Program-made: the position numbers and the translations under genes | Shown: positions 3,337-63,540 of the stretch, in pieces | Numbering within the stretch: the first letter of the stretch is position 1 | How the letters are laid out: each line of letters starts with the position of its first letter | Assembly: GCA_030527205.1 (NCBI GenBank) | Contig: JAUNBG010000002.1 | Span: forward strand, 1-64,000 | DNA: 64,000 bases | Reading direction: 5' to 3' | Origin: Planctomycetia bacterium | GTDB taxonomy: Bacteria > Planctomycetota > Planctomycetia > Pirellulales > Thermoguttaceae | The notes under the pieces: generated by a model | Databases searched by the model: none | Told to the model about the DNA's origin: nothing | The model's input: the letters and a program-made list of their open reading frames with translations, nothing else

Positions 3337-3592
3337 CAGTCTGATCTTTCAAGTTTGACTTGTTTATCTAAACTATTCGAATATTGTTTGATAATATTTT
3401 ATTAAAACAATCCGGTTAAACTTGTTATACTCAAGCCCGACCATAACGGGCAAATTACGAAACGACAATCTTGCCTGTTCCAAAGTCGCAAACAGATTAA
3501 ACTGAAAATCAACCCAAAAACAAGTAAAAACAATAAATATTCTTATTTTGCAACGATTGCCAAAAACCATAACCAATTTTAACAGAAATTTT

Positions 3593-6500
3593 ATGACTCA
3601 GATGACTCAGGGAAAATTATTTCGACCGCTTTGTTTAAACGGTCTGAACTTTTTTTATGCGGCATTGATTTCGACGCTGTCAATCGTCGCTTTTTCTTCC
3701 GTTTTTGCTCAGGAACCAGAAACGTCCGCCGTTGACGTCTCTGCAGTTGCGGAAGCGACTGAAATTCCTGCTTTGCCAGCAGAATCTGTTTCGACCGATC
3801 AAACTGAAACGACGGAAAATGTCGCATCAACTGTCGAAAATAATGTTTCAACAGAAACCTCTGCCGAAACAGCAGAAACTTCGCCGCTTTCTCTTCCTCT
3901 GGCGACAACAGAGCAACAGCCAACGGAAAATCTCGGGGGAAATAACGAAACAGCAAACGCCAACCAACCAGCAGAAGGCCAACCGACGGAACCTTCCGGT
4001 TCGCTCCCCATTACTCATTCGCCGGTTACGGTTGAAGAAGTTCAAAATGGAAACGGACTTTTTATTTTTTCCGTTTTTGTTTTTGTCCTCATCGTTTCAT
4101 TCCTTCTTGCGAGAATATTATCAAAACGCTGGAGACTCCCTGATTACGAACGCGCTTATCTGATCACTCTTTTCTGTTTCCTTGGCGGTCTTTCCTCGAC
4201 TATTCTTGGAATAGCCGGAAATCGAATGAATCTCGGTATCGACCTTCGCGGCGGTTCCATTTTGGTCTATTCCGTTTCTCCCAATGAGGGAAATTTAGAA
4301 GACCCCAATGCAAGCGCAACCATTTCCAATACACAAATGGGCGAACTGAAGGCCGCTCTGGCTCGTCGAATCAACCCGACTGGCGTTCGCGAAATCGCTA
4401 TTCAGGAACTCGGCAACAACTCCGAGGTCAAAATAACGATTCCGGAAGCAGACGATACGGAAGTCGCCCGGCTCGAACGAATCATCAATTCGACCGGTCA
4501 ATTAAAATTCCGAATTCTCGCCTCAACAAGCGCCCCTGAAGAAAAAGAACTGATCGATCGCGCTCAAAGCGAAGAATATAAGACAGCCTGGGACATCAAA
4601 CTTCCTGAACCGATTGGAAAAGACGGAATTATTATCGGCGGAACCTGGGTTCCTGTCGATCCGACTCAAATGGATTCCGTTCAATCTCCCGATCTGATTT
4701 TGCGCGAATCATTATTCAACAGCAACGATCCAAACGCGCCAGCTCCAACGGTTGACGTCCTGGTTCTTGAGCTGGAACCCGCTTATGACGTTCAAGGCGG
4801 TCATATGTCGACCATTCGCGAAAGCGTCGATGAAATGGGACGTCCTATTGTTCTCTTTTCATTAAAACCGGACGGAGCGGAACGGTTTGGACAATTGACC
4901 GACCGTTATAAAGCCGGAGAAGGACGTTCTCGCGGACGGCAATTAGGAATCGTTATGAACGATTTCCTTTATTCTGCGCCAAATATCAAACAACGAATCA
5001 GCGACTCGGGAAGCATTTCTTTTGGCGAAAATCTCGGAGCAAAAGATCGGGAACGAATCCAACGCGATGTTCGCGATTTGATTAATGTCATGAACGCTGG
5101 CGTTCTTCCTGCAAAATTATCCGAAAAGCCGGTTACGAGTATGGTCACAGGACCAACTTTGGGATCCGATACAATTCAAAAGGGGAAAAACGCCATTCTT
5201 TGGGGCGGCATTCTCGTCCTGGCTTTCATGATCGCCTATTACGGTTTTGCTGGTTGTGTTGCCAGTCTTGCTGTTATCATGAACCTTTTGCTGATTATGA
5301 CTTTTATGTTGGCAATGAGGGCCGCTTTTACTCTTCCTGGTCTTGCCGGTCTGGTTTTGACCGTCGGTATGGCTGTTGACGCCAATATTCTTATTTTTGA
5401 ACGCATCAAGGAAGAACTCAACGGCGGAGCAACGTTAAAAATGGCTATTCGCAACGGTTTTCAAAGAGCTTTTTCTGCCATTTTAGACTCAAACGTTACA
5501 ACAATGATTACTGCCTGGATTCTTTATCTCGTTGGAACGGATCAGATCAAAGGTTTCGCTGTTACGCTGTTCCTCGGCGTTGCTTTCAGCTTATTTACAG
5601 CAACTTTTGTTTCGCGAATTATCTTTGAAACCGCAGAACGAATGAAGTTTATCGGCAAAAGTTGCGTTTATCCGATTATTCCCGGATTGAAACCGTTCGG
5701 TAAAACGAAAATCAATTTCCTGGGGAACGCCCGACCTTTTATTACAACATTTGCCATTTTTATCATTCTTGGAATGATTGCCGTTTTTGTTCGCGGAAAA
5801 GGCATTTTCGACATCGATTTTGTCGGAGGAATAGAAGCGCAAGCGGTCTTTACTCAAGAACAAAATATTGCGGAAATTCGTTCCAAACTCAAGGATCTTC
5901 CCGATCTGGCTGTCAGCAATCTGACTCTGTCCAAAGATCGATCCGGCAATTTGGTTGCTCCCAATACTTGTTTCACAATCAGTACTTCGTGCCCTGTTGA
6001 TCAAAATGCGGACGAATACAGCAAAGTTGTTGAAGAAAAAATGAAAGAAGCATTTGGCAATTCTCTTCAATATTTAACTTTGAATGTCCAAACCGATTAC
6101 AAAACAGAAGAAGTTCCAATTTCTTCTGATTCTGATAAAAAAGAAACCAATATTTCAATGGACTTGACCGTTTCGCCCGCCCAAAATCATGACGTTGTTT
6201 TGGGATATTTTGAAGACCAACGGGATAAATTGATTGCCGAAAAGGGACTCGAAACTTTTGAAATTGCCCTTTCCGGTCCGGAATATGATCAAGGAGATAA
6301 AGACGCTCCCTATAAAAATTGGACTCTGACCTTTACAACGGACAACGTTGATCTGATCAAGCAGATTGTTGCTTCTGTTGAAAACGAAATTAATGGAACT
6401 CCTATTTTTGAATCCTTCAATACAATTGGAAGTTCTGTTGCAAGTCAAGCCAGAATACAAGGTTTATGGGCCATTTTCGGAAGCTTGATTTTTATTATCG

Positions 6501-6982
6501 CTTATATTTGGATGCGATTTACTAAAGTTGTTTTCGGATTGGCGGCTGTTATCGCATTGGTTCATAATGTCTTATTCGTCCTGGGAATAATTGCCTTAAG
6601 TTATTGGCTCGCTCCATTCCTTGGCTTTTTACAAATCAGCGAATTCAAAATTGGTTTGCCAACCGTTGCCGCATTTTTGACGATTATCGGTTATTCGCTG
6701 AACGATACGATTATTCTTTTCGATCGTCTTCGGGAAATTCGCGGAAAAAATCCTCAAATTACAGCTGACATGATTAATTTGAGCATTAATCAAACATTGA
6801 GCCGAACCATTTTAACAACGTTGACAACTTTCTTTGTCGCTGTTGTTCTTTATTTCTTCGGCGGAGCGGGAATTCATACATTTGCGTTCGCTATGTGTGT
6901 CGGCGTCTTTATTGGAACGTTAAGCACAATTTTCATTGCTTCTCCAAGCCTTTACTGGATGTTAAATATGAAAAAGAAATAA
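3593..6982 (+). CDS. secDF: Fused protein translocase subunit SecD/SecF
   Basis: A single polypeptide of about 1129 residues carries both halves of the SecDF proton-driven translocation factor. A signal or anchor segment is followed by a long Thr/Glu/Ala-rich stretch (to about residue 140) that is not part of the usual family. SecD begins near GIDLRGGSILVYSV (about residue 215) and has its six-helix domain with TVGMAVDANILIFERIKEEL. The SecF half begins near DIDFVGGIEAQ (about residue 740) and ends with GYSLNDTIILFDRLREIR. The protein acts in the inner membrane with YajC. The frame is also open to a TTG at 3548; I prefer the ATG at 3593, although neither has a good ribosome binding site. A strong terminator follows the stop codon. 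Confidence 0.95.
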   Translation: MTQMTQGKLFRPLCLNGLNFFYAALISTLSIVAFSSVFAQEPETSAVDVSAVAEATEIPALPAESVSTDQTETTENVASTVENNVSTETSAETAETSPLSLPLATTEQQPTENLGGNNETANANQPAEGQPTEPSGSLPITHSPVTVEEVQNGNGLFIFSVFVFVLIVSFLLARILSKRWRLPDYERAYLITLFCFLGGLSSTILGIAGNRMNLGIDLRGGSILVYSVSPNEGNLEDPNASATISNTQMGELKAALARRINPTGVREIAIQELGNNSEVKITIPEADDTEVARLERIINSTGQLKFRILASTSAPEEKELIDRAQSEEYKTAWDIKLPEPIGKDGIIIGGTWVPVDPTQMDSVQSPDLILRESLFNSNDPNAPAPTVDVLVLELEPAYDVQGGHMSTIRESVDEMGRPIVLFSLKPDGAERFGQLTDRYKAGEGRSRGRQLGIVMNDFLYSAPNIKQRISDSGSISFGENLGAKDRERIQRDVRDLINVMNAGVLPAKLSEKPVTSMVTGPTLGSDTIQKGKNAILWGGILVLAFMIAYYGFAGCVASLAVIMNLLLIMTFMLAMRAAFTLPGLAGLVLTVGMAVDANILIFERIKEELNGGATLKMAIRNGFQRAFSAILDSNVTTMITAWILYLVGTDQIKGFAVTLFLGVAFSLFTATFVSRIIFETAERMKFIGKSCVYPIIPGLKPFGKTKINFLGNARPFITTFAIFIILGMIAVFVRGKGIFDIDFVGGIEAQAVFTQEQNIAEIRSKLKDLPDLAVSNLTLSKDRSGNLVAPNTCFTISTSCPVDQNADEYSKVVEEKMKEAFGNSLQYLTLNVQTDYKTEEVPISSDSDKKETNISMDLTVSPAQNHDVVLGYFEDQRDKLIAEKGLETFEIALSGPEYDQGDKDAPYKNWTLTFTTDNVDLIKQIVASVENEINGTPIFESFNTIGSSVASQARIQGLWAIFGSLIFIIAYIWMRFTKVVFGLAAVIALVHNVLFVLGIIALSYWLAPFLGFLQISEFKIGLPTVAAFLTIIGYSLNDTIILFDRLREIRGKNPQITADMINLSINQTLSRTILTTLTTFFVAVVLYFFGGAGIHTFAFAMCVGVFIGTLSTIFIASPSLYWMLNMKKK

Positions 6983-55523: not shown

Positions 55524-56789
55524 TTATTCAAAAACAACAGCAAATGCCCGACCCGTATTCGAATGATTAATCTTTAGAAAAGTCGAAGCATTAATTGAAT
55601 AAGGCAAATTGTTAATAACATTAATCGGACAATCGGTCGCAATGTTCTGACAATTTCTGGTCGCAGGAACTGTTTTATGTTGAATGGCCAGCAAGGATGC
55701 CGCCAATTCGACCGCTCCTGTTCCGCTTCCCAAATTGCCAAAATGCCCTTTTCCTGTAAAAACTGGAATATCATTCAACGTTTTTTGAATTGCCTGGGCC
55801 TCTATTGCGTCTTCGAAAATTGTTCCTAAACCTTCTGCGTTCAAATGTCCCAAATCCTTCGGAGTTCGATCCGCTTCCTTCAAAGCAAGTTGAATTGCTC
55901 GAATGATTGATTCTTCTTGAATACCGATTCTTCCCGTTGGCGCATTGGTTCGCGCTGCGCCTCGAATGGTCGCAATTGGCTGGACGCCTCGAGCTTGCGC
56001 AAACTCTTTGCGTTCTAAAACAAAAGCGGCCGCTCCTTCCCCAATAACCGTTCCAACTCGATCAACATCAAAAGGACGCGGAATGGTTTGCGGATCATTA
56101 GACCAAGGAGCAAGATTATAAGATTTTCCTCGCGCCAAAACTGTCGGATTGATTTTATTGCCGCAACCGCCGCAAACCATAACATCGGCGTCGCCTCGTT
56201 CCAAGACTCGAAACGCTTCGATTAAAGCCGATAAACTGGAACCTCGATCAAGCGTCGGCGTATTATTTGGGCCTCGGGCATCCAATGCAATCCCGATATG
56301 GCAAGCTGGCATATTAGGCAAATATTTGAGCATCCAAAGCGGCATGATTTTTTCCATAGCGCTATGCCCCCAAGTTGAAAAATCATGTTTTCCGCATTGA
56401 ATTCCCGCTTTAAAGGCGTCAACCAATTCTGAAAGTTCCAAACCAATTAAATCGCAACCAAAAATAACTCCGATTCGTTCCGGATCAACGGAACGTTCTT
56501 CGCCGTCTGTGATCAATTGAGCATCTTGACAGGCATGCGCAACCGAGACAACGCCCATTTGTATATCCCGACTCATAACCTTTATGTTTTTTTTAGGTTT
56601 TATATAGTCTTTCGGACGAAAATCGGGAACTTCGCTTCCAATAGGTCGATTCATCATTTGAGTTTCGATCGATTGAAGATAACCAATTCCGCTTTTCCCC
56701 TCACATAATGATGTCCAAAAAGAATCTTTGGTTATTCCAATAGAACTCAGAACGCCAATTCCCGTTAATACAACTTCATTTTTTATCAT
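55524..56789 (-). CDS. Beta-ketoacyl synthase homologue lacking the catalytic Cys-His-His triad
   Basis: The 421-residue protein aligns over its full length with FabF-type ketosynthases (MIKNEVVLTGIGVLSSIGIT, GDADVMVCGGCG, RPFDVDRVGTVIGEGAAAFV). The active-site elbow reads NNTPTLDRGSSLSALI: the nucleophilic Cys is Arg182. The first catalytic His (NAHG in FabF) is Glu319 in LNAEGLGT. The second (GHLLGA) is Asn352 in HFGNLGSGTGA; only Lys347 is kept. So it should not condense acyl chains. It could act as a chain-length-factor-like partner, a scaffold or an acyl-binding protein. No partner ketosynthase, acyl carrier protein or reductase gene is adjacent. No ribosome binding site is obvious. Confidence 0.9.
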   Translation of the reverse strand: MIKNEVVLTGIGVLSSIGITKDSFWTSLCEGKSGIGYLQSIETQMMNRPIGSEVPDFRPKDYIKPKKNIKVMSRDIQMGVVSVAHACQDAQLITDGEERSVDPERIGVIFGCDLIGLELSELVDAFKAGIQCGKHDFSTWGHSAMEKIMPLWMLKYLPNMPACHIGIALDARGPNNTPTLDRGSSLSALIEAFRVLERGDADVMVCGGCGNKINPTVLARGKSYNLAPWSNDPQTIPRPFDVDRVGTVIGEGAAAFVLERKEFAQARGVQPIATIRGAARTNAPTGRIGIQEESIIRAIQLALKEADRTPKDLGHLNAEGLGTIFEDAIEAQAIQKTLNDIPVFTGKGHFGNLGSGTGAVELAASLLAIQHKTVPATRNCQNIATDCPINVINNLPYSINASTFLKINHSNTGRAFAVVFE

Positions 56790-62942: not shown

Positions 62943-63540
62943 ATGCGTAAACAACATCTTGTTAAATTGACGGACAAACAACGTTTGGAATTATACCAAA
63001 CGATCAAAAAAACACAGGGGAGCCCTCGCAAAATCAAACGAGATCAAATTTTGCTCAAAACTGATATTATTGGTTTCAATTGGGTTGAAACCAAAATCGC
63101 AAAAACGTTTGACTGCAAATTTCAATTCGTTGAAAAAATTCGCAATCGTTTTAATGAGTTTGGGTTTGAGGCAGCTCTTCATGAAAGACAATATAAATCC
63201 GACTCGAAGAAAAATTCTCAACAGCGAACAAGAAGCAAAGATCATTGTTTTACGGAAAACCAGACCGCCTCAAGTTCATTCCCGTTGGTCTTTTCGTCTT
63301 CTTACGAAACGAGTTATTGAACTAAAAATTGTCGAATCCATAAGTTATCAACCCATTAAACGTCTTTTCAATCAAGAAAATCATAAAGGCCGTTCGTTAA
63401 TTTGCTGCAAAAAACAATCATTGCCTCTTTTTCTTAAATTCAAACGAACAACGAAAGACAAGAAACTCAATCCGATCAACCCCCTGATTGTTGTCGGGCT
63501 TACGAAAACAAAATTCGGGGTTTTTAACGGGTTCGAGTAA
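62943..63540 (+). pseudogene. IS630-family transposase remnant, frameshifted and truncated
   Basis: Frame 62943-63320 encodes MRKQHLVKLTDKQRLELYQT and RKIKRDQILLKTD...AKTFDCKFQFVEKIRNRF, the IS630 N-terminal helix-turn-helix, up to FEAALHERQY. The match then continues in the +1 frame (63070-63540) with EAKIIVLRKTRPPQVHSRWS and FRLLTKRVIELKIVESISYQ, the conserved second helix-turn-helix. The break is near 63180-63210. After PIKRLF the sequence loses similarity, and the DDE catalytic domain (the remaining half of an IS630 transposase) is absent. I see no terminal inverted repeats bounding an element. A family B core lies 21 bases upstream of its start. Confidence 0.85.

Follow-up and report, generated by a model that had tools for sequence, protein, structure and literature searches.

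The window, a stretch of 64,000 nucleotides from a Planctomycetia bacterium, encodes a Cys-less FabF-fold protein of 421 amino acids (55524..56789, minus strand), a dead, KS-beta-like relative of the ketosynthases (KS). From sequence comparison, the chances stand at about even that this member of an ancient, operon-derived family pairs in trans with an intact KS encoded on the same contig (C6:151499-152782) and serves there as a non-catalytic subunit resembling a chain-length factor (CLF), its former active site now holding an Arg-acid pair.

The reading frame is intact in the ORF listing and in the DNA, starts with ATG, and its product matches both ketosynthase halves in Pfam end to end (ketoacyl-synt, 3.5e-29; Ketoacyl-synt_C, 5e-16), indicating a complete ketosynthase fold. 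An AlphaFold2 single-chain model built from a 90-sequence alignment (pLDDT 95.2, pTM 0.94) has the thiolase-like fold, and Foldseek matched it to FabF (beta-ketoacyl-ACP synthase II) with TM-scores of 0.88-0.90. The closest solved structures are FabF enzymes (4ls5, E 4.6e-48); structural comparison puts the identity at about 26-29%. The FabF alignment is ungapped at the three catalytic sites and, together with the DNA, confirms the full-length homologue and the three substitutions given in a preliminary description: Arg182 (codon cga, 56244..56246) at the catalytic Cys position, Glu319 (gaa, 55833..55835) at the first catalytic His and Asn352 (aat, 55734..55736) at the second, all read on the minus strand, as is Lys347 (aaa, 55749..55751) at the conserved FabF lysine. 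A further loss, which the preliminary description does not mention, is that of the C-terminal GFGG gate loop, where INHSNTGRA replaces the SNSFGFGGQ of KS. Both the Cys-His-His triad and the GFGG gate of FabF are therefore missing, and the protein scores below the curated FabF cutoffs (TIGR03150, 239.4 bits against 493.75; NF005589, 235.3 against 387). By known KS chemistry, a protein of this sequence is predicted to be catalytically dead.

The closest named relatives, at 60-67% identity, come from metagenome-assembled genomes of ruminant-gut Thermoguttaceae. Within the window's taxonomic family, matches at E 1e-60 or better, a threshold that also lets in Cys-less paralogues, were found in 108 of 119 genomes and in all 43 well-assembled ones; at the order level 171 of 198 genomes had a match at E 1e-75, and matches are widespread at the class level too. 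Among close orthologues, pairs whose synonymous changes are not saturated gave dN/dS values of 0.03-0.14; pairs that include the window gene itself have reached synonymous saturation, and the figures come from other pairs. The Cys-less family keeps its length, fold and signature throughout, and the lineage is under purifying selection. The joint loss of three catalytic residues might suggest a decaying or mis-assembled gene, but full length, a pLDDT of 95, dN/dS well under 1 among orthologues and the presence of orthologues family-wide make this exceedingly improbable, in agreement with the earlier view that the gene is not in decay. A sequencing error at all three sites is excluded, since 40 of the 145 Cys-less homologues, which come from many different assemblies, have Arg at the Cys site. 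In the tree, all Cys-less proteins, the window's included, form one clade against the intact KS (SH-aLRT 99), with the operon-borne dead type as sister to the remainder. Intact-triad orthologues had been named beforehand as the sign of a recent loss; no intact-triad member lies inside the Cys-less clade, and recent loss was rejected.

Site states were read residue by residue in the 145 Cys-less homologues. At the Cys site, Glu is present in 70, Asp in 30, Arg in 40, Gly in 3, and Ser and Gln in one each, and the commonest pattern of the clade is E/D-H-K-N. Conservation of R-E-N across planctomycetes, which had been put forward for checking, was thus not borne out: in this sample the full set is confined to the window protein, whose nearest relatives read R-D-N and R-N-N. 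With Arg at this position, the window protein departs from the acidic Cys site that marks the planctomycete Cys-less FabF clade (acid in 100/145). The first His site is His in 74 of the 100 acid-type proteins; among the 40 R-type proteins it is Asp (28), Asn (10), Glu (1) or Ser (1). Lys is found at position 347 in 93/100 acid-type and 29/40 R-type proteins, so that its reported retention is correct for the window protein but does not extend to the R-type proteins overall, while Asn at 352 is the most frequent state in acid-type and R-type alike.

In the tree, the R-type proteins comprise a large lineage of 38 rows, in which Arg182 is invariant, and the pair L051/L055. On these sequences, Arg arose once, or at most twice, L051/L055 being joint or separate depending on the root. 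Since two E-D proteins (L048, L058) branch near the base of the R-type lineage, the tree suggests a route from E-H through E-D and R-D to R-E or R-N. A coupling between site 319 and Lys347 (Lys in 29/29 R-type proteins with an acidic residue at 319 and in 0/11 with a neutral one) was considered as repeated compensation and rejected, the pattern tracing to a single change in the tree.

The fold being FabF-like, sites 182 and 319 should lie side by side in what was once the active site; on this basis, and given the joint change of both sites in the lineage, Arg182 and Glu319 probably form an internal salt bridge that closes the dead site. In 29/40 R-type proteins, the Arg at the Cys site goes with an acid at 319. 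Within the lineage of the window protein, acid-His at the disused active site gave way to Arg-acid, most likely as a salt bridge that stabilises the core. It had been proposed instead that the Arg creates a cationic pocket binding acyl-CoA or phosphopantetheine. The invariance of Arg182 in the large lineage, and the total of 40 R-type proteins, speak for such a pocket, but it is very unlikely in view of the acidic Cys site in most relatives, the frequent pairing of the Arg with an acidic 319, and the location of the FabF Cys site, which we take to be the innermost part of the tunnel for pantetheine, away from the phosphate-binding part. The His site has turned to Asp, Asn, Glu or Ser where the Cys site became Arg, and an internal charge swap fits this better than a ligand.

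The statement that the gene has no partner KS beside it proved correct only locally. No ketosynthase adjoins it within the window, but the genome carries a FabZ1-ACP-FabZ2-KS operon at about C6:149.4-152.8 kb, on the same contig and ~95 kb away, whose KS (C6:151499-152782) is intact. Moreover, in another planctomycete class the two genes are adjacent, in the order FabZ1-ACP-FabZ2-deadKS-KS (L159, L160, L162, L166, L173); these genomes appear to be Phycisphaerae-like. As to a co-conserved ketosynthase elsewhere, which had been suggested as something to look for, a partner-type intact KS is present in 32/32 genomes tested (30 of the window's class and two outside it). Of the 30 loci read in the window's class, 26 carry FabZ2 and ACP genes upstream of this KS, and none has the dead KS inside the operon.

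A further arrangement was found in family f33 (L163, L164, L168; outside the window's class), where an intact C-H-K-H ketosynthase occupies the slot of the dead KS and carries the signature PLWLLKHLPNM, common to the dead family. The operon of these three genomes reads FabZ-ACP-FabZ-KS-KS, with the full triad in both ketosynthases, and is likely an ancestor-like state. In the simplest history that we infer, an ancestral pair of active ketosynthases was present, one of which lost catalysis before the classes split; later, the dead gene left the operon and was duplicated in Planctomycetia. The dead family would accordingly descend from the first of the two ketosynthases in a FabZ-ACP-FabZ-KS-KS operon.

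Under the proposed pairing, the window protein would still associate in trans with the intact operon KS, an enzyme that would serve the FabZ-ACP-FabZ set, and at their dimer interface the dead subunit would shape the acyl cavity. The segment carrying the family signature, PLWMLKYLPNM in the window protein (residues 150-160; 56310..56342, minus strand), corresponds in the alignment to FabF residues 131-141; their side chains presumably form the dimer interface and reach into the acyl cavity of the neighbouring subunit. Position 155 in this segment is Lys or Arg in 143/145 dead KS; the partner-type KS have ExEQExNM here, with acids (Glu or Asp) at 153, 155 and 157 in 41/41. The opposite charges persist even though the two genes are unlinked in Planctomycetia, which favours a heterodimer formed in trans in the fashion of KS and chain-length factor. 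Lys at 155 is also found in planctomycete housekeeping FabF, only the ExEQE on the KS side being unusual, and specificity would therefore rest mainly on the KS side.

Mirror-tree partial correlations given DnaK were 0.661 for dead KS against operon KS, 0.659 for dead KS against FabF and 0.622 for KS against FabF; with the first two near-equal, the test does not single out the operon KS as the partner. This equality would equally suit a dead subunit that pairs with housekeeping FabF and adjusts general fatty acid chain length, as would the position of the second paralogue directly after the housekeeping ACP-FabF genes in some Planctomycetales (L123, L126, L128, L137). However, that adjacency belongs to another paralogue clade, and the window clade was never beside fabF in the loci read, leaving a FabF partner improbable.

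For pairing with the operon KS, the window genome also holds a competitor. It encodes six ketosynthase homologues, four intact (C-H-K-H) and two Cys-less, namely the window gene and L002, which may compete for the role of partner subunit. The second Cys-less ketosynthase, at L158:5980-7341 (C6:117543-118865), reads E-F-K-N and falls in another paralogue clade. As a wider and more tentative proposal, somewhat on the doubtful side, the class as a whole may use a split ketosynthase made of the intact KS of a universal FabZ-ACP-FabZ operon and one to three interchangeable, product-setting dead subunits encoded outside it, one lineage of which went from acid-His to Arg-acid.

In several Pirellulales, the dead-KS gene stands beside two GNAT acyltransferases and not FabZ/ACP. 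In 16 of the 98 loci with enough upstream sequence, GNAT genes, often paired, immediately precede the dead KS on its own strand; the linked loci are from Pirellulales (at least 16) and include the R-type L045 and L046, and a GTPase gene follows downstream in many Pirellulales. Ketosynthase folds naturally hold acyl chains, and the protein could be a stand-alone, homodimeric holder of acyl-ACP or acyl chains that supplies GNAT-type N-acyltransferases. The small share of linked loci argues against this, as does the window genome itself, whose GNAT pair lies near the other dead paralogue (L158), with LpxK and Dtd in between, and not by the window gene; the GNATs, moreover, have no NCBIfam assignment. 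We regard such a holder as unlikely. The GNAT pair (L158:1643-3980, ~380-400 aa) carries a WIPPL/WVPPL motif and recurs beside Pirellulales dead ketosynthases. Its database matches were a generic GNAT in Pfam, none in NCBIfam and none of significance in the PDB, and a ceramide-synthase identity, suggested by a motif, stays no more than a lead. The GNAT and ACP-FabF links point to acyl-chain metabolism, and to no one partner.

Around the window gene, only an upstream thymidylate kinase is common to some related genomes, and a conserved operon was rejected. Other reading frames were classified by eye: a long ORF at 3548-6982 resembles a SecD-SecF fusion, with a YajC-like ORF upstream; overlapping short ORFs at 62943-63540 look like a broken IS630-type transposase; and a 1257-aa ORF beside housekeeping fab genes (L180:3846-7619) looks like a fusion of MFS transporter, acyltransferase and AMP-dependent ligase.

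Cys-less FabF paralogues were reported by Rattray et al. 2009 (PMC2649909) in the planctomycetes R. baltica (NP_866153, E-H-K-N; NP_865682, D-H-I-H) and, among anammox bacteria, K. stuttgartiensis (Kuste3606, V-N-K-E; Kuste2805; Kuste3348). The window protein has phylum, fold and Cys loss in common with them, and the pattern of NP_866153 is the commonest of the clade; the window protein differs by carrying Arg, not an acid, at the Cys site, by lacking the first His and by having no fatty-acid genes alongside. Kuste3606 belongs to the cluster kuste3603-3608 with ACP, FabZ and FabF genes (kuste3603-3605), whose expression in E. coli did not substantially change the fatty acids and gave no ladderanes (PMC4790861). 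This ladderane-candidate cluster joins ACP, FabZ, FabF and a non-canonical FabF to a phytoene desaturase and a radical SAM protein. The window genome has its FabZ-ACP-FabZ-KS core ~95 kb from the dead gene; no desaturase or radical SAM protein was recognised among the ORFs read.

The comparison with chain-length factors, already drawn in the preliminary description, was a good lead. Type II chain-length factors (actinorhodin KS-CLF, 1tqy; aryl polyene ApeO-ApeC) have a KS fold without the Cys, and in the window protein the Cys is likewise replaced in a full KS fold, as in a KS-beta. In KS-CLF, the end of the cavity is reportedly formed by one residue per subunit, His138 of ApeO and Glu142 of ApeC (PMC8358021). 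The typical place of a KS-beta beside its KS is not seen in the window but only in the relatives from another planctomycete class, where the dead KS adjoins an intact one in CLF-like manner. Furthermore, the window protein is nearer to FabF than to CLF (4ls5, 4.6e-48, against 1tqy_B, 4.1e-26), has no Gln and, within the window, no linked KS. The KSQ malonyl decarboxylases, in which the Cys of a KS fold is replaced as well, retain both histidines; where these have Gln and two His, the window protein has R, E and N. An intact fold and many intact core residues would be compatible with a different enzyme, such as a malonyl-ACP decarboxylase of the KSQ kind or a Cys-free acyltransferase, yet the absence of both decarboxylation histidines and of the gate loop, and the variability of site 319 in the lineage (D, N, E, S), leave little room for it.

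Planctomycetes produce unusual lipids, such as the anammox ladderanes, and potential sphingolipid makers have been reported among them (PMC11334938). Cys-less planctomycete FabFs have been known since 2009; in the literature searched, with thin coverage of subscription journals, no paper was found that assigns a function to the dead KS or describes its Arg variant, its exit from the operon or the slot filled by an intact KS. The window gene encodes a real, conserved and uncharacterised protein of this kind, for which the comparison names a candidate partner KS and its operon, a partner-type KS being present in every planctomycete genome tested. A 'divergent FabF' of no assigned function may thereby become one half of a testable KS/KS-beta pair, whose operon slot is filled in family f33 by an intact, ancestor-like KS. 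It also exemplifies a dead enzyme in which the buried site would have undergone successive changes of charge.
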